Below, piece by piece: positions 35,801 to 61,502 of a stretch of DNA of 64,000 nt. How positions within the stretch are numbered: the first letter of the stretch is position 1; every line of letters starts with the position of its first letter. The notes under the pieces are model-generated. The model did not search any database. It saw nothing but the letters and a program-made list of their open reading frames with translations, and had not been told where the DNA came from. A program made the translations under genes and the position numbers. This DNA comes from a virus, in IMG/VR virus record IMGVR_UViG_3300043449_000987, positions 36,368 through 100,367 of that record. One strand, 5' to 3'.

Positions 35801-38800
35801 GTTTTAGCATAGTTTTCTGAAACAGCAACAGAATATGGTTTAATCTGACTAATTTTTCTTTGAATAACTGCTAAACTTGCCTCAGATGCCTTGCTTAAAT
35901 AATTAATACGTGCATCAATCGACAGTGGTTCTTTAGTGATGTCTTTGCCATCTTTACTCAACAACTCTTGAACTTTGGCCTTAAGTTTAATCTCACTTAC
36001 ACCACTAAGTTCTGCTGCTGCTTTAATGTTGGCAGCAATGTCTGCTGGACCAAGACCAAATGTTGCTGCTCTTTTTGCAACATCTGTAGCCGAAATATCT
36101 AGTGCGTTTGCTTTGCCAACTCTTCCAGAAAGTTGCTGACCAACTGCTTTTCCTTCTTCTGCATAAAACTTTCTAAAGTTTGCTGCTTTTGCTAGATCAG
36201 CATCAATAAAGCGTTTATCTCCTACACGATTAAACTGGCGCTCAGAAGGTAGGGCTTTATCTCCAACATATCTTGAGTATGCATTAATTGACTCAATATT
36301 TCCAAGTCGTGCTTCTGCTTCTTTTTTACCAGCATCCTCTAAATGTTTGATATATTCTTGTTGCTTTTTACGTAAGAAGAAGAATCCTGCAGCAACTGCA
36401 GCCACTCCTGCTACCGCTAAACCAACTGGATTAGTTAGCATTGGCAGAGCCATGGCCAATGATTGAATCCCCATAACTGCTGGTGCTGCTGCTTGAGCAA
36501 TTTGTCCAATTGGGCCAGGCATCATTGATGCAGCAAGCATTGCTCCTGATGCAACCATGCCACCACGCATAGCGCCACCTGAAATCATTTGTGCTTTTGC
36601 TTTTATTGGTTGTGCTTTAAAATTTCTGTATGCCCCTGTCATCTTGCCACGCAAAGATTGTTTTGGTTGAGGCCCAAACATAACATCTTCGCTATATGTT
36701 GCAGGAGATTCACCAGGTCGAAGTGTTAGTCCACCACCTGTAGAACTGACTGTTCCCCTTGGAACAATAAGTCCAGATGCAGTTTGTTCAAATTGAGTTA
36801 CTGCTCCTGATGCAACCTTTGCTGCTGCTGCAGCAACTGCACCAGATCTTTTTTCCATACCAATAATTAATCCATTATCAATATCTTGACCAGTTTGATC
36901 AGTGAAATGTGATGGAGAATTTGTTCCTGCTCCACGAGCAACTGCTCCAACTGCCACTCGACCAACCTGCATGGCTTGTTGCTCAATTAAAACTTGTCCC
37001 TCTTTAAATATTGCACCATTTCTTAATTGCTGCATAACCTGTTGCTCAATTGCAGATCCTGCACCTGCTTTTTTACGTAAGAATGGTTCTACATAATTTG
37101 TTGTGGCTGGTGAATATGGAACGTGTGCAAATTGATAAGATCCTGGATAATCTTGAGGCATTGGTAAACCTCTCATAGCAAGTTCTGATCCAAATGATCT
37201 TCTTATTTGCTCTTTATAACTTACTCCAAATCTTTCTGTAGAGGCTCTCTTAACAATATGTTCTCCAGCCTCATTAATTGATAGTTCTACTCGTTGTAGA
37301 TTTTGTTGAGTTAAATCACTTTCTAATGGGTCAAGCAACTTACGAACAGCAATAGACATTGACTGCATGTCTCTTGCAGTAATTTGTCCTGATTGTGCCA
37401 TTTCTTCAATACTTCTGATAATTAATGGGTATTGAGTTTTACCAACTTGAGCAACATTTGTTACATCTGCTGTAACGCCATCTCTAAATATTGAAAAAAT
37501 ATTATCTAAAACTGGTGTTAAATCTTGACCAAACTTTTTATAGTTTGCTTGTGTAACCTTAATATCTTGTTCCATCATCATTGCTGTTTTAATTGATGCA
37601 GCAAAAGATGCTTTGGCCTCTTCACTTGAAGTAAGCCATTCTCTATCCATACCAAATCCACCAGGAGTGTTTCCTGGAGCCATCATTGCTACTGGAGAAT
37701 ATCTTCTTGATTTAAATGTTCCACCAAGTACAGTTCCCAATGTTGGGAAAAGTCCTCCAGCAAATCCTGGAATATTTCCAGATACCAAAGAATTAACCAA
37801 GTCTGGATGTCTAGCAACAGACTTTGCTGGAATAATTGCTTCACCATTAGAAACTCTGGCAACAATAGAATCTGATGTTCCAGTTCCTGGACCACGAACA
37901 ATTCCACCATCTGCAAATTTCTTTGGTTGTCTAGATTGTGGAATCATCATGCCTGGATTATTAAATGCAAATCTTGATCCTGCTGCTGCTGCTTCAATAT
38001 AGGCATTTCTCAAATTCATTACTGCATCTGCTTCAACTGTAAATCTTTGTGTTAGTCTTGCATGAACCTGATCAAGTGAGTGTGCTACGGCCTCTGCCTG
38101 AATTTGTTCATTAGTTAAATATTGGGTTTGTTCTCCAAGATACTTAGACTGCCCAGTTAATTTTAAATAACCATTTCTCAATAAACCAAACATCTTTAAA
38201 AGTTGTCCACCAAAGTTAGCAACAAGACCAACAAGCATTAGAACAACTGGTCCAACACCTGCAAATAATGTAACAAGGGTCGTTACTACTTTTTTAGTAC
38301 CATCGGAAAGATTATTAAACTTGTCTGCAATCTTTGTAAAAAACTCAATAATTGGTGTAACAACTTTGAGGAACGCTTCTCCAACTGGAGCAAGAGATGC
38401 TCTTAGTGATTGAACTGCTGCGCTAAATTTAGTTGCAGCATTTTCTTCAATAGCATTTAATTCTTTATTGGCAATTGCTGCAAGATCTTGGGATGACATC
38501 TTTACTAATTCAAGTGCTTGAGATGCTTGTGATCCTGATTTTGCAATATTATCAAACAATGCAGATACTCTTGCAAACTGGAACTTACCGAATAGTTGCT
38601 CTAAAATTCTTTGTCTTGCTAAAGGTGTTAACTGTTTCATTGCATCAGCAAGGTCAAGGACTGTACGCATGATGTTTCCTTCATTTCTAGAAACAATAGC
38701 GTTAAGATCAATATTGACACCATTAAGCATTTCTCTTGCTGCCTTGCTTGGATTAATCATAGAAGCAAGAGCAGACTTTAAACCGTTTGCTGCTTCTGCA

Positions 38801-53219: not shown

Positions 53220-53228
53220 ATTTTATCA
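53220..53228 (-). promoter_or_regulatory. Putative extended -10 box for the giant structural gene
   Basis: TGATAAAAT, 9 bases, ATG 53210 on the minus strand; one mismatch from TATAAT. Confidence 0.4.
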
Positions 53229-53735
53229 CACTATGCGTGTGAACCAGCGTGGTATTGTGTATCTAGTTCCATTAAGAATAGGCTTAACACCATGAACAAA
53301 ATCTGGTGTATCTGGAAAACAAACCAAATCTCCTGCTCCTGGTTTAAAGTTTATATTATGATCTGGAAAATATATTTCTCCGCCTTCATAATCCGTATTT
53401 ATATAAATGAGAGTAGCAATATCATTTGGCTTTGTAGAGTCAAAATGCTCATGCATCCCAAACCCCTCCTGAAATCTTGCAATGTGTGTTTTTGTTTTAT
53501 CATAGTCGGAAAATGGTCCAGGATAGTTATCTCTAACAAACTTTAAAACATCTACTCCGTAATCATTAATTAAATCAGCGACTTCATCACTATTAAATGA
53601 GGCATGAAATGTAAATTCTTTTTCTCCATTACCATACTCAAGAAACTCATCATCATATTTTTTTGCATAACTAGTAATCGTTTCTGCATGTTCAACTGAC
53701 ATAAACCCTGGAATTATTTTGATTAAATCACTCAT
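53226..53735 (-). CDS. 2OG-Fe(II) oxygenase, prolyl-4-hydroxylase type
   Basis: 169 residues from ATG 53735, which has AAGGA 5 bases upstream and overlaps the previous stop. Core motifs: HEHFDS (His and Asp ligands), YEGGEIYFPDHNINFKPGAGDLVCFP, FVHGV (distal His) and GTRYTIPRWF (Arg for the 2OG carboxylate). All expected active-site residues are present, so an active hydroxylase is likely. Paired with the more divergent oxygenase next to it. Substrate unknown; proline or another side chain of a virion or host protein is possible. Confidence 0.85.
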   Translation of the reverse strand: MSDLIKIIPGFMSVEHAETITSYAKKYDDEFLEYGNGEKEFTFHASFNSDEVADLINDYGVDVLKFVRDNYPGPFSDYDKTKTHIARFQEGFGMHEHFDSTKPNDIATLIYINTDYEGGEIYFPDHNINFKPGAGDLVCFPDTPDFVHGVKPILNGTRYTIPRWFTRIV

Positions 53736-54333
53736 AGAATCCTTTAATTTCCCAATCATCCCAAGATGTCTCTTCATAAGATGTTCTATTTGGCATAAAG
53801 TGCTGTCCCTTTTTACCCATCCATGCTTCTGACAAAAATAGAAACCCTGAAGTTATCTCAGAAAGTCCGTGAAGGTTGTCTTTATTATCTTTAAAGTAAA
53901 TAAGATCTCCAGGATTTGGCTTAAAGGTTTTGCCTAATTTTGAAAAAACAAACTCTCCACCCTCGTCAGCATTTTTCCATACGATATAAGATACATAGGT
54001 TCCCTCTGGCTTTGAGTCTTCGTTATGATGCTGTGGCTCAGATGTTCCTGGTCTATATCTTAAAATGTAATGCTTTGAAAACATTGGAGGATGATACTCT
54101 GATTCATTTTCAGACTGAACTAATTCGTAGTACCCCTTTGAATATTTAGAAAAGATTTCTAAGATGTGGTCTGGCATTTCTCCACGAGTATGAATATCAA
54201 ATGGTGCTCCACCATTGTACAAGTCATCGTGTAGTGGCACGTGCTCTTCTTTTGTATGAAAAGCAATAGTGTCGATGTAGTCTTGAACAATTTTTAAATC
54301 TTCTGTGGAAATAAAGTTATTTACAATTTTCAT
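53728..54333 (-). CDS. 2OG-Fe(II) oxygenase-like, divergent active site
   Basis: 201 residues with the P4H plan: KIVNNFISTEDLKIVQDYI at the start, QHHNEDSKPEGTYVSYIVW, EGGEFVFSKLGKTFKPNPGDLIYF and NLHGLSEITSG. The Fe-binding triad reads HHNED where HxD is usual, and the Arg that binds 2OG is not evident after the distal His (SGFLFLSEAW). It may use another arrangement, or may be a regulatory or inactive partner of the gene that follows. The ATG overlaps the stop of the ribonucleotide reductase gene by one base. Confidence 0.7.
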   Translation of the reverse strand: MKIVNNFISTEDLKIVQDYIDTIAFHTKEEHVPLHDDLYNGGAPFDIHTRGEMPDHILEIFSKYSKGYYELVQSENESEYHPPMFSKHYILRYRPGTSEPQHHNEDSKPEGTYVSYIVWKNADEGGEFVFSKLGKTFKPNPGDLIYFKDNKDNLHGLSEITSGFLFLSEAWMGKKGQHFMPNRTSYEETSWDDWEIKGFYE

Positions 54334-56450: not shown

Positions 56451-56597
56451 TTATGAAAAACTCATACCTCTAGTATGGTTTTTTGGAAAACATCTTTCAC
56501 AAACTGTATAAGAAAATCCAGTATATGGACATCCTACTGTTTTTTCTTTATGACCGAATATAAAACAAATTGTTTTTTTAATCAAAGTGGTATCCAT
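56451..56597 (-). CDS. Small Cys/His-rich protein upstream of nrdJ
   Basis: 48 residues from ATG 56597. Cys11, His16, Cys23, Cys33, Cys36 and His41 are spread so that a zinc site (for example Cys23/Cys33/Cys36/His41) is possible (GCPYTGFSYTVCERCFPKNH). It overlaps the end of the oxygenase-like gene by 16 bases, and a weak GGGG site precedes it. The CERCFP motif and even spacing of Cys make a chance ORF less likely. Role unknown; a redox or metal-binding partner near nrdJ is only a guess. Confidence 0.5.
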   Translation of the reverse strand: MDTTLIKKTICFIFGHKEKTVGCPYTGFSYTVCERCFPKNHTRGMSFS

Positions 56598-57241
56598 ATG
56601 TTTTCATTTACCCCACTTGCTTTTGGTGCAATGTCGTAAGCAATAGTAATACGTGGTTTATCTTCAAACCAATCATCTCGTCCATGTGGATGTCCAGTTT
56701 CTGAAATAATTGCACGATTATTTTTATTATGATTTTCAAACAAATCTGTTCCATAAATTTCATAATAAGTAATTGATGGCTCAGCATTTACACAATAATA
56801 GCCATGAAATACTGGTGCACCTTCTCCACCCATATGATCATGCATAAAGCGTTTATTCTTAACTGGGTTTACTCCAGACCCACCCTCTGTTTTAGGGTCA
56901 TAGTTATACCAGCCATGGATCATATAGGACTTATCATCAAAGGACATATTGTAATACTCACACGCTTCTTTGGTTGCCTCTCTAAGGGCATCCTGAAGGC
57001 TTTTAATGCCTATATGATCAAAGTTAAAGACATTATATTCCATTCCAAGTTGTGTGGTTACACCATTTTTCTTATTAAATGCAGCCAATCTGGATGGCTC
57101 AATATTAAATAGTTTTCCTTCAAGCATTAAGTCTTGTTGCAATTCTAGATAATTGTACAAATCATCAAGATCTGTATTTAAAAATCTTTCAAAAAATTTA
57201 TGTGGTGGCTTTGTCATTGCAATCATGCTAGAGGTATCCAA
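56582..57241 (-). CDS. 2OG-Fe(II) oxygenase-like protein (2OG-FeII_Oxy_5-type), second of pair
   Basis: 219 residues, a close paralogue of the gene at 57223-57885. Shared blocks: KFFERFLN..., ACEYYN..., MIHGWYNYD, HDHMGGEGAPVFHGYYCVNAEPSITYYE, NNRAIISETGHPHGRDDW and PRITIAYDI. The HxH motif, second His-rich loop and R-I-T-I-A-Y match the beta-helix layout of the 2OG-FeII_Oxy_5 group, from memory. The exact Fe ligands are not certain. It overlaps its paralogue by 19 bases. Confidence 0.65.
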   Translation of the reverse strand: MDTSSMIAMTKPPHKFFERFLNTDLDDLYNYLELQQDLMLEGKLFNIEPSRLAAFNKKNGVTTQLGMEYNVFNFDHIGIKSLQDALREATKEACEYYNMSFDDKSYMIHGWYNYDPKTEGGSGVNPVKNKRFMHDHMGGEGAPVFHGYYCVNAEPSITYYEIYGTDLFENHNKNNRAIISETGHPHGRDDWFEDKPRITIAYDIAPKASGVNENIWIPL

Positions 57242-57885
57242 TGCTGTTCTTGATCCATTGCAAATCTTTGAAGATCTCTTAATGGTATAACGTCATAGGC
57301 AATAGTAATTCTTGGACCATCCCAATCCCAGTCTGCCTGTGCATGTGGATGCCCCATCTCAGACAAAACTGCACGATTATTAATGTTTTGATTCTCTACT
57401 TCATTATCAAATACTTTGTAGTGTGTTACAGATGGTTCAGCGCTTACACAGTAATAACCATGAAAATTTGGAGCGCCAGTTGGACCATGATCGTGCCAAT
57501 CTAGTTTTCCCTTTTTAGTGTAATTAATATTAAACCATCCCTGTAGCATAAACTTTTCTTTTTCAAAGTCAAGGTCGTAGTAGGAGCATGCCTCTTGTGT
57601 CATTTCTTTTACTGCCTTATATAAATTATATATTCCTATTGAGTGGAACTGAAAAACATTGTATTGGCGCCATTTCATAGTAGAAACACTGTTTGATTCT
57701 TTCCATAAATCTTTGTCTGTAACTGGTGTTACACCAGTAATTTTTGCCTGCTCAATTTTTTCATATCTATTTTGTAATTCTGAAGATAAGATCAACAGGT
57801 TGTTGTCTAGATTTCTTTCAAAGAATTTGTGTGGCTGAGGCGACTTGCTAACACTTTTCATGCTTGTGTTATACTTGCTTTCCAT
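57223..57885 (-). CDS. 2OG-Fe(II) oxygenase-like protein (2OG-FeII_Oxy_5-type), first of pair
   Basis: 220 residues. Blocks HKFFERNLDNN, ACSYYDLDFEKEKFMLQGWFNINY, DWHDHGPTGAPNFHGYYCVSAEPSVTHY, NNRAVLSEMGHPHAQADWDWDG and PRITIAYDVIPL are shared in order with its downstream neighbour, showing a tandem duplication. Likely Fe(II)/2OG hydroxylase; substrate unknown. Own promoter (TGCTATAAT at 57908-57913) and GGAGC site. The pair lies between a sulfotransferase and nrdJ. Confidence 0.65.
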   Translation of the reverse strand: MESKYNTSMKSVSKSPQPHKFFERNLDNNLLILSSELQNRYEKIEQAKITGVTPVTDKDLWKESNSVSTMKWRQYNVFQFHSIGIYNLYKAVKEMTQEACSYYDLDFEKEKFMLQGWFNINYTKKGKLDWHDHGPTGAPNFHGYYCVSAEPSVTHYKVFDNEVENQNINNRAVLSEMGHPHAQADWDWDGPRITIAYDVIPLRDLQRFAMDQEQHWIPLA

Positions 57886-57923: not shown

Positions 57924-58658
57924 TTATTCAACAAAACCATGTTTGTCAATGGCATAATCGTATATCTCTAAGTCTATACTGTTTAACTCAATAATTCTTT
58001 CATACTGGGAGTTTGATATTTTAAAATCTGTTGGGCTGCTTTGATTAATAGGATTTTTAAACAAAAATGGGTTAACGTTAAGTAATTTTGGTAAACCAGA
58101 AATAATTCCATCAATATCTTCTATAAAAAAAATATGGTGGCTATCTATAAACTTAAAAGCATCCTCTTTTGTTTTTTCATTATTATTAATAAACCAGTTA
58201 TTTTCAATCATGGGCTTTTTTTGCAACATTTTACCCTGAATAAAAAATGGACTATTTTTTACAACATCATTATAACTATCAACATCGATTGTTCCAGTTA
58301 AAAATTTAAACTGTGTGTTTGAGTTTAACTCAGACATCAAAGGATTATAGAGCCAATAATCTAGTAATTCTTCACTAGAAATTTCTGGAAACATGAATTT
58401 TGTATATTTAACAGTACTCAAAAATCTATCTACTGGATTTCTTAATATAGTAAAAACTAATGGATTTTTCATATACTGAATAGGATAATTTCCCCAATGT
58501 CCAGCCACATAATAAGAGTTAGAAATAATATCTTTGTTTAACTCAGTGTTATGATTAGACAGATAACCTTTGTTAGCAAACTCATTTTTTAAATGTGTCT
58601 TAACAAAGGTTCCGCCCGTTCGTGGAATATGAGAATGATATATACTATCAAACATCAT
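57924..58658 (-). CDS. PAPS-dependent sulfotransferase-like protein
   Basis: 244 residues. The 5'-phosphosulfate-binding loop HIPRTGGTFVKTHL is at residues 9-22 and the 3'-phosphate-binding segment FTILRNPVDRFLSTVKY near 70-86, the two hallmark motifs of carbohydrate sulfotransferases. It would move a sulfate from PAPS to a sugar or protein. No PAPS synthesis gene is seen, so donor comes from the host. Placed right after the adhesin with a Hint domain. Its start follows the upstream stop by 10 bases and lacks a clear ribosome site, and MM at the start leaves the exact ATG open. Confidence 0.75.
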   Translation of the reverse strand: MMFDSIYHSHIPRTGGTFVKTHLKNEFANKGYLSNHNTELNKDIISNSYYVAGHWGNYPIQYMKNPLVFTILRNPVDRFLSTVKYTKFMFPEISSEELLDYWLYNPLMSELNSNTQFKFLTGTIDVDSYNDVVKNSPFFIQGKMLQKKPMIENNWFINNNEKTKEDAFKFIDSHHIFFIEDIDGIISGLPKLLNVNPFLFKNPINQSSPTDFKISNSQYERIIELNSIDLEIYDYAIDKHGFVE

Positions 58659-58668
58659 ATCTTAACTT

Positions 58669-59988
58669 TTAGTAGTACTTAAGGTTGTGTACAAACAAGT
58701 TACCAGCAATCAAGGTGTCTGTAGGCTCGCAGTCAAACTTGTAGACTGTTGCATCTCCGTCAATTACCTCAATAGATTCTACAAGAACTTCTGAGAATGT
58801 CATTGACTCTGGATTGAAAGCAATAACATAATCTCCAACTTCTAGTCCTTCTGTAACTTTATAAGAATAAACGTTTCCACGCTTAACAAAAATACCCTGC
58901 TCTAATGAGTACTTCTTTGAAGGATCATTGTTAATTGTCATTATCTTATTAACTTGCTTTGACTGAAGATTTGCAATACGTGTTGAAACAGTTGTCATAT
59001 TTGTAACTGACTCTGTTGTCCAAGAATATGGATCTGCAATAGACTCGTCCACGTTCTCATCAAATGTTCCTGCCCAAACACGATCATTTACAACACAATC
59101 CTTGGCTGCCTTTGTTGCAAGACCTCCGTCTTCAGTTTGTACTGTAATTAATGTATCTTCGTGAATACATCCTGGTGAGAATCCAAATGGTGAGAATCCA
59201 AATGGAGAGAATCCAAATGGAGAGAATCCGAATGGTGAGAAGCCGAATGGAGAGAACCCAAACACGCTAAATGGTGAGAACCCAAATGGTGAGAAGCCAA
59301 ACACTGAAAACGGTGAAAAGCCAAACACTGAGAACGGTGAGAAGCCAAACACTGAGAACGGAACAAACGAAAATGTAGTAGTTACGCTATCAGAGTAGTC
59401 AGACCAGTCTCCAGAACCAAGAGCATTGTTTGCACGAACACGATATTGCTGTGCTGTTCCTTGCTCTTGACCTACTGAAACTGATGTGCTGCTTGTATTT
59501 CCTGACTTTCCATCTGTTGCTTCCCAATCATAACTTGTAATTGCAGATCCACCATTATCTGGTGCTGACCAGGATACTGAGTCATTACCTGCTGAAGGCG
59601 ATGATACTGAAGGCTTTCCAACTTTATTTGGAACTGTTGTTACGCTTTCGGCATTAGATGATACTTCTGTTGAAGAACCAATTGATGAATTAGCCTTAAT
59701 TTTAAATGTATAACTTCTATTACTTAGTAATCCAGTTACACGATATGGAGAAGATGTTGCTGTAAAGTTTACATCGGCAATTCCTGAAGAAGATGCTGTG
59801 ATTGTAAAACTTGTAGCAGTAGAACCAATACCTGTACCTGCTACATATGTAATGTCATATTGAGCATTATTATAGCCATATCCTACTTTTTGAACATTGG
59901 TAATTGTTGGTTCTGCTGGAGCAATACCCCAGTATCTGATTGTCTGCTTAGCAGACTTTCCTGATTTACCACCTCTACGAATTGCCAT
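58669..59988 (-). CDS. FN3 adhesin with FSPF repeats and C-terminal Hint (intein-like) domain
   Basis: 439 residues in four parts: a basic start (RRGGKSGKSAK); two FN3 domains (about 25-118 and 120-205); a repeat tract of FSPFG and FSVFG units (207-272); and a Hint domain from Cys274 (CIHEDTLITVQTEDGG) to His434-Asn435 (LFVHN), followed only by LKYY. Block A Cys, the VGDYV strand and the terminal HN are typical for Hint or bacterial intein-like domains. The block B TxxH appears as SLEQ and the block F His as Asp, so the chemistry may be reduced to one cleavage. It probably sits on the tail fibre, where the Hint could process or couple the C-terminus. Confidence 0.8.
   Translation of the reverse strand: MAIRRGGKSGKSAKQTIRYWGIAPAEPTITNVQKVGYGYNNAQYDITYVAGTGIGSTATSFTITASSSGIADVNFTATSSPYRVTGLLSNRSYTFKIKANSSIGSSTEVSSNAESVTTVPNKVGKPSVSSPSAGNDSVSWSAPDNGGSAITSYDWEATDGKSGNTSSTSVSVGQEQGTAQQYRVRANNALGSGDWSDYSDSVTTTFSFVPFSVFGFSPFSVFGFSPFSVFGFSPFGFSPFSVFGFSPFGFSPFGFSPFGFSPFGFSPFGFSPGCIHEDTLITVQTEDGGLATKAAKDCVVNDRVWAGTFDENVDESIADPYSWTTESVTNMTTVSTRIANLQSKQVNKIMTINNDPSKKYSLEQGIFVKRGNVYSYKVTEGLEVGDYVIAFNPESMTFSEVLVESIEVIDGDATVYKFDCEPTDTLIAGNLFVHNLKYY
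59163..59365 (-). repeat. Tandem FSPF/FSVFG-coding repeats
   Basis: About a dozen near-identical 15-24-base units (GGATTCTCACCATTT and variants) encode GFSPF and SVFGFSPF. They sit between the FN3 domains and the Hint domain. Such repeats can change copy number by slippage or recombination. Confidence 0.85.
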
Positions 59989-60020: not shown

Positions 60021-61502
60021 TTACGCTGTTAGGTCGCCAGTTAAGATCCAAGTATCAGTTGAACGCTTAACTAACGTTGCTGCTGAATACTGTGCACGTA
60101 ACTTCAAACCAGGTGTATAGTAAACAGTTACTCCTGCTGCTGCAGCAATTGTAACTTGTCCTGTACCCTTTTGGAAAATATCAACAGACGATCCTACGGG
60201 GAAGGCAACTGTTGCATTTGTTGGAACTGTAACAGTAGTTGAAGAAGATGAATCCATTTCAACTAAGTTGGTTGAATCTGTTAAAGCAAGAGTATAACTT
60301 GATGTCTTATTATTAAAGGATACTAACATTGCTGCATTTAGATCTGCTGTGCTTGCCTTTGATGCAAGAGCAGTTGTTACTGTTGAAGCAAAGTTAGCAT
60401 CATCACCAAGTGCTGCTGCAAGTTCATCAAGTGTATTTAGTGCTGCAGGTGCTGATGCAACAAGATTTGCCACTGCTGTTCCAACGAACTCTGTTGTAGC
60501 AATCTGTGTTGTATTTGTTCCTGCTGCTGCTGTTGGTGCTGTTGGTGTTCCAGTTAGTGCTGGAGATACAAGTGCTGCCTTAGCAGCAAGATCTGTTGTA
60601 AGATTTACAATAGATGATTGTGAAAGACCATTTGCATCAATCTTTGCATCTGTAACTGATCCATCTGATGGTGTTCTTGTATCAGAAAGACGTGAGTCTC
60701 CTGTGTATACCAGGTTTGCTGAATCTGTAATGCCATGTACATTTGTTGTGTCAGAATTGTGATCTGAAACCTTTGTATCTGCTGCAGATCCTGCTGCTGA
60801 AATTGCTGCGGTTTGTGCATCTGAAGCCTTTAATTCTGCATAAGCCTTTGTTGCAAGTAGGGATGTATCTCCAATACCGTGCACATTTGTTGTTGCATCA
60901 TTATGATCAGATACTGACTCTGCAATTGCGTTGTTGCGATTTGTTACTTCGTCTGCAATCTTACCATCTGTATATGAATTTGCAGAAGTTTCTGCTGTCT
61001 CAATTGCTGTATTAAGACTGGTTGCTTGTGCAGTAAGTGCAGCATTACGGTCTGTAACATTTTGAGCAAGAGCATCAGTCAAATCATCAGTGTATACAAT
61101 GTTTGCAGTATTTGTAATACCGTGAACATTTTCTGTTAGAATTCCGTGATTGCTTACAGCATTATCTACTGTATTAACAAAATCGCCAATTTCCTTAAGT
61201 GTATTTAGTGTTTCTGGTGCTCCATCAATAAGTGCACCAAGTTGGCTAATAGGAATATTGCCATTTGCTGTAAGGGTAGCAACACCATTTGGTTGTCCCT
61301 TTTCTGAGTCTAGAACAAAGCCATTGCCGTCTAGATCTCCAAAATCTTTGAATATACCAAGAGAAGACCAGTTGTTAACGCCGTCACCAATTTTGAATTG
61401 TCCAGTGTCGGTTACAAATCCGATTTCTCCTGCTGCTAAAATTGGGTTTGCTGCATCCCATTGTGCTGCAGTACCTCTGCGTTGTTGCATTCTTGTTGCC
61501 AT
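60021..61502 (-). CDS. Tail fibre protein with Mtd-like N-terminal domain and repeated shaft
   Basis: 493 residues. The start RMQQRRGTAAQWDAANPILAAGEIGFVTDTGQFKIGDG is the classic N-terminal module of phage tail fibres (Mtd N-domain type). The shaft has repeated NVHGI(T/G)DTAN blocks with helical spacers (TSLNTAIETAETSANSYTDGK), a coiled-coil region, and a C-terminal beta domain (SYTLALTDSTNLVEMDSSSSTTVTVPTN ... DTWILTGDL). It would attach at the tail tip and bind the host. AAGGAG site and own promoter at 61546-61551. Confidence 0.8.
   Translation of the reverse strand: MATRMQQRRGTAAQWDAANPILAAGEIGFVTDTGQFKIGDGVNNWSSLGIFKDFGDLDGNGFVLDSEKGQPNGVATLTANGNIPISQLGALIDGAPETLNTLKEIGDFVNTVDNAVSNHGILTENVHGITNTANIVYTDDLTDALAQNVTDRNAALTAQATSLNTAIETAETSANSYTDGKIADEVTNRNNAIAESVSDHNDATTNVHGIGDTSLLATKAYAELKASDAQTAAISAAGSAADTKVSDHNSDTTNVHGITDSANLVYTGDSRLSDTRTPSDGSVTDAKIDANGLSQSSIVNLTTDLAAKAALVSPALTGTPTAPTAAAGTNTTQIATTEFVGTAVANLVASAPAALNTLDELAAALGDDANFASTVTTALASKASTADLNAAMLVSFNNKTSSYTLALTDSTNLVEMDSSSSTTVTVPTNATVAFPVGSSVDIFQKGTGQVTIAAAAGVTVYYTPGLKLRAQYSAATLVKRSTDTWILTGDLTA

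Follow-up and report, generated by a model that had tools for sequence, protein, structure and literature searches.

A viral gene encoding 439 residues ends in a domain that resembles the Hint fold, placed directly behind an aromatic repeat tract on a putative tail protein, and raises the question of whether a fibre tip may process itself. Inteins, Hedgehog proteins and bacterial intein-like (BIL) domains are known settings of Hint chemistry. The gene lies in a window of 64,000 nucleotides (positions 36,368 to 100,367 of IMG/VR record IMGVR_UViG_3300043449_000987), and all coordinates below refer to this window, in which every feature described is on the minus strand.

Gene layout and identification of the Hint domain

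The gene is a single ORF at 58669–59988, located after a run of tail-fibre genes. An adjoining tail-fibre gene with an Mtd_N N-terminus (60021–61502) is immediately upstream, and the order of Mtd_N gene followed by Hint gene was common to loci L012, L022 and L024. Judged by this neighbour and gene order, the Hint gene closes a tail-fibre module. One Hint copy was found in the 100-kb source virus record, to the end of which the window extends.

The protein consists of two FN3 domains at about residues 27–204 (59377–59910; Pfam fn3 6.1e-8 in two stretches, boundaries approximate), an aromatic FSPF/FSVF tract at residues 204–273 (59170–59379) and the Hint domain from Cys274 to Asn435 (58684–59169), the layout proposed in the initial annotation. 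The tract of 70 residues contains 26 Phe, with 9 FSPF and 4 FSVF units, and none of 2000 composition shuffles gave at least three units of this type. It closes with FSPG, which directly abuts Cys274 (codon 59167–59169), the predicted nucleophile at a Gly273/Cys274 junction. The earlier claim of a tract that stops precisely at the splice point holds for the window copy and does not extend to other family members, which have short linkers of differing residues between tract and Cys1. Block B reads SLEQ (residues 361–364, 58897–58908) where canonical Hint domains have TxxH, and Asp424 (58717–58719) occupies the block F His position; both replacements had been read from the sequence and agree with the alignment to 2lwy. 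The domain closes with VHN, of which His434-Asn435 is block G (58684–58689), and the remaining four residues, as first described, are LKYY (residues 436–439, 58672–58683), including Lys437 (58678–58680), the proposed acyl acceptor.

The window protein on its own was searched against Pfam, NCBIfam and PHROGs, and matched PF14890 in Pfam with E=0.055 for the whole protein and 0.0043 for the Hint domain only. A profile of the 28-member family alignment (A3) was compared with the PDB, where the best solved match was the bacterial intein-like domain 2lwy (E=2.2e-9), followed by the KlbA and RadA inteins. Family members matched PT-HINT, Intein_splicing and Hint_2 in Pfam. Since the lone-protein scores are weak and the family scores strong, the Hint call, which the HMM comparison upheld, rests on the family. 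Within A3, Ser361 is invariant and position 364 is Gln or His. A search of genome contigs with the first family alignment (A1) found no relative.

AlphaFold2 modelled the Hint domain with a pLDDT of 93.1 and a pTM of 0.87. Foldseek against the PDB returned 58 matches at E<=0.001, the top one being BIL2 of Tetrahymena BUBL1 (1.4e-7), and the 50 matches listed were all inteins, BILs or Hedgehog, 2lwy included. Family profile and predicted fold identify the C-terminal domain of the window protein as Hint/BIL-type, and the model is closest to a type A bacterial intein-like domain.

The next gene on the downstream side is sulfotransferase-like (57924–58658; PF03567, E=1e-4); relatives of it were found at 8 loci, each of which is a Hint locus. 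Also downstream are two genes that resemble 2OG-Fe(II) oxygenases (53226–54333 and 56582–57885; PF13640, the second just under the cut-off), along with a paralogous gene pair that has no Pfam match. The oxygenases were considered as a marker of Hint loci and as candidates for prolyl hydroxylation of the tract; they were rejected as a marker because they are equally common at Hint-less tract loci (63/107 vs 84/116), a frequency that also bears on the hydroxylation idea.

Comparison with known Hint systems

The window copy ends in His434-Asn435-Leu436, that is, in the C-terminal His-Asn with no +1 nucleophile that defines type A BILs. It shares Cys1 and this ending with its best profile match, the C. 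thermocellum BIL (2lwy), and its best fold match is the Tetrahymena BUBL1 BIL2 (6y75, 6tmm), for which a lysine acceptor has been reported. Unlike type A BILs, it has SxxQ at the block B TxxH position and is placed on a phage fibre protein behind an aromatic tract; where BILs have a C-terminal flanking domain, 1–4 residues follow the His-Asn here.

With class 1 inteins the window copy has in common the Hint fold, an N-terminal nucleophile and the block G His-Asn. It differs in having Leu436 at +1 in place of Cys/Ser/Thr and, beyond LKYY, no C-extein, and class 1 splicing was rejected for this copy for want of the +1 nucleophile. The +1 nucleophile occurs only in a sister clade that begins with Ser (Ser1), which shares the +1 Ser and terminal Asp as further class 1 features. 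Class 3 inteins, which have no residue 1 nucleophile, do not match, as Cys274 is present. The Hedgehog Hog domain (1at0) has the same fold and C-terminal position and uses only the N-terminal thioester; the window domain differs in ending with His-Asn and in having no potential sterol-binding region after it. Hedgehog-like lipid transfer was rejected on the latter ground, there being no sterol-recognition region and only 4 residues after Asn435. In Pfam, the window protein had no match to a self-cleaving phage fibre chaperone (Peptidase_S74, G2).

Hint domains on phage tail proteins are already known from automatic annotation. Tail proteins of three isolated phages carry a C-terminal Hint domain, namely phage NCTB (BN7874_136, 'contains intein domain'), Yersinia phage fHe-Yen9-02 and Erwinia phage pEa_SNUABM_33. 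These begin with Gly-Cys and end with His-Asn plus 7–10 residues, and differ from the window protein in their collagen-like repeats in place of FSPF, canonical TxxH and longer tail after Asn. Two BFVD entries from uncultured Caudovirales phages have the same Hint structure, A0A6J5MFV5 (Fibronectin type III; TM 0.94, 34% identity) and A0A6J7WKC1 (Hint domain containing protein; TM 0.91, 32% identity), and both names were assigned automatically. The literature search found no paper on the function of Hint-bearing phage tail proteins and no report of Hint chemistry working in a virion; in open-licence literature, what matched a query on tail fibres with a Hint or intein-like domain was ordinary inteins (e.g. 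terminase) or unrelated work. As far as searched, there is no earlier description of the coupling of tract and Hint, of the two catalytic configurations or of the lysine.

Distribution and conservation among tract proteins

To avoid choosing relatives by their Cys1 peptide, IMG/VR was scanned for tract DNA alone, blind to Hint. Aromatic tracts were common on phage fibre proteins. Of the 75 ORFs that have an FGF(S/T)P tract and a genuine 3' end, 61 carried a Hint domain, 2 a degenerate Hint, and 11 ended at the tract. The FFPPFFP-tract ORFs (107, a sample from among the matches listed) included 12 with Hint, 44 ending at the tract and 34 with a Cys-rich tip. Most tract proteins that have no Hint terminate at the tract or shortly beyond. 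Close homologues with and without Hint were 83% identical over 300 aa (L147 vs L161), 90% over 204 aa (L246 vs L264) and 92% over 176 aa (L224 vs L214); the Hint-less partners of the first two pairs terminate shortly past the tract, and Hint-less L224 has a Cys-rich tip at its end.

Such small Cys-rich tips were seen on about 34 FFPPFFP-tract proteins among the matches listed, one example being SGCSGCIRSYCWQACPSCCGSCGC. Seven proteins among the same listed matches have a YSSxRFK tail at their end. Both kinds of tip (L168, L186, L199, L201, L261 and others) look like exchangeable tip cassettes.

Residue 1 was Cys or Ser in 97/97 unique Hint copies, most of them from the Hint-blind scan (in 4/97, with an alignment gap at this position, it was read by eye). 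Degenerate copies that have no residue 1 nucleophile stand outside this set (L085/L103, L280). In the Cys1 copies, 44/51 aligned sequences end in His-Asn, the next residue is usually Lys or Leu, there is no +1 nucleophile, and the block B His is replaced by Gln in 32/51 as well as in the window copy. The Ser1 copies have the block B His in 42/42, Asp (His-Asp) in 41/42 and the +1 Ser in 36/42, with longer tails after block G. By these residues the Cys1 copies are type A BIL-like and the Ser1 copies class 1 intein-like. A Lys within three residues after block G was present in 41/47 Cys1 copies vs 2/27 Ser1 copies, against a baseline of 29% of unrelated ORFs with Lys among the last three residues. 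Five Cys1 copies in which HI, HT, GS or AS replaces HN (Asn to I, T or S) retain the lysine.

On a tree of 74 non-redundant Hint copies, Ser1 formed one clade (support 100/97). As Cys1/Ser1 is a single change on this tree, the covariation between residue 1 and the domain end counts as one event and not as many independent ones. Parsimony placed seven changes at block B, all inside Cys1 and mostly between Gln and His. Profile alignment of the Ser1 clade (hhalign 99.6%, E=1e-24), its AlphaFold2 model (pLDDT 85) and its best Foldseek match, 2lwy, mark it as a true Hint relative. Over the Hint domain, dN/dS was 0.08–0.25 in most close pairs and 0.49 in one pair (the L063/L064 pair has too few changes for a dN/dS reading), and the domain is under purifying selection.

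Further Hint-like frames were encountered beside the family. Stand-alone Hint ORFs directly downstream of tail-protein Hint genes were found at L018:5953-6483, L021:2275-2772 (also L007) and L010:4483-4944; in L018 and L021, stand-alone Hint and tract-Hint both lack the terminal Asn (GSK, ASK; HTK) and keep Cys1 and Lys. Diverged Hint-like downstream ORFs that have no Cys1 occur at L016:6500-7129 and at about 3490-4069 in L037 and L038, that of L038 recognised by a weak HMM match (E=1.8e-4) and those of L016 and L037 by eye. A 1303-aa DnaE polymerase-like frame (L062:1834-5742) contains the block A CIHEDTLIS, nearly identical to the first residues of the Hint family, and probably holds an ordinary phage intein.

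Proposed self-processing and its alternatives

Type A BILs have no +1 nucleophile, and an N-terminal thioester followed by C-terminal Asn cyclisation has been proposed for them (PMC4031507). BIL2 is reported to form a lysine isopeptide bond in which the N-flank is joined to a lysine (PMC8616854). The Hint family keeps the parts that match the BILs, the junction-side lysine included, which led us to propose that the protein is a fibre-tip subunit whose Hint domain, of type A BIL-like kind, processes it. Once the protein has folded, Cys274 would attack the Gly273-Cys274 bond, so that the FSPF tract would end in a thioester. The acyl group would pass to an amine, most likely Lys437 of the LKYY of its own or a neighbouring chain, and Asn435 would cyclise and release the Hint domain. 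The predicted mature product is an FN3-tract tip capped by a short basic-aromatic tail. We infer each of these chemical steps, as well as lysine as the acceptor and the form of the mature tip, from the sequence and its conservation, the fold prediction, the surrounding genes and the Hint-less homologues.

Some autoprocessing at Cys274 is more likely than not. The fuller reading, in which it is followed by transfer to an amine, is given a probability of roughly 0.4; the choice of Lys437 as acceptor is tentative and less likely still. The C-terminal Lys could alternatively serve structure or termination. As BIL2 is reported to join its N-flank to a lysine and the Hint family keeps one just after His-Asn, an amine is a likelier acceptor than a lipid or circularisation, both of which the initial annotation had entertained and for which no evidence was found; what stands of its self-processing idea is a C-terminal Hint/BIL-type domain on a tail-module protein, its junction placed where the aromatic tract stops and its residue 1 Cys or Ser in all relatives. 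The main doubt about the predicted chemistry is the Gln at block B in the window copy; the block B His is also missing in some active inteins (PMC7664689). Pro directly before Cys1 in some relatives counts as well. A Pro at this position would be expected to donate its acyl group poorly.

The covariation of residue 1 with the C-terminal end of the domain argues for live chemistry, and it bears on the suggestion that the Hint fold has no catalytic activity and is a receptor-binding tip, belonging to a set of cassettes that can replace one another after the tract. What follows the tract clearly changes from protein to protein (no tip at all, or a Cys-rich, YSSxRFK, FN3 or Hint one), block B has Gln, and a few Hint copies have no Asn or look degenerate; a binding tip, however, has no need of an invariable Cys/Ser at residue 1 or of covarying ends, and we regard this explanation as unlikely. 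An equally unlikely alternative keeps part of the chemistry: the Hint would be a removable cap that holds the hydrophobic tract soluble through folding and assembly and is then lost by thioester hydrolysis, with the lysine chemically idle, much as other phage fibres lose a C-terminal chaperone that cleaves itself off. The C-terminal position of the Hint, the hydrophobic tract and the Hint-less homologues that terminate at the tract or shortly beyond fit such a cap, as does the report that BILs yield mainly cleavage products (PMC4031507). It leaves unexplained the Lys kept after block G and why the Ser1 clade has a +1 Ser and longer tails, and many homologues do without any cap.

A decaying selfish mini-intein, by chance near the gene end, would account for the presence and absence of Hint among close homologues and recalls the CIHEDTLIS block A in the DnaE-like phage polymerase. 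Purifying selection on the Hint, its retention across very diverged copies, a length of about 162 residues that leaves no room for a homing endonuclease and a Cys1 clade with no C-extein to protect make this very improbable. We give as little weight to a chemical harpoon, with the Hint in place of a thioester adhesin domain, in which the thioester would persist until host contact and a surface amine or hydroxyl would displace the Hint, attaching the virion covalently via the aromatic tract.

The preferred reading, self-processing with transfer to an amine, concerns a fibre-tip family that is widespread and occurs with two sets of catalytic residues, Cys1/Asn/Lys and Ser1/Asp/Ser. The residues predicted for self-cutting are kept in almost a hundred relatives, which suggests that phages may chemically finish their own fibre tips. 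If this is true, phages would produce fibres whose tips are chemically modified or spliced, type A BILs would gain a concrete biological job, and the family would be a source of new ligation domains.
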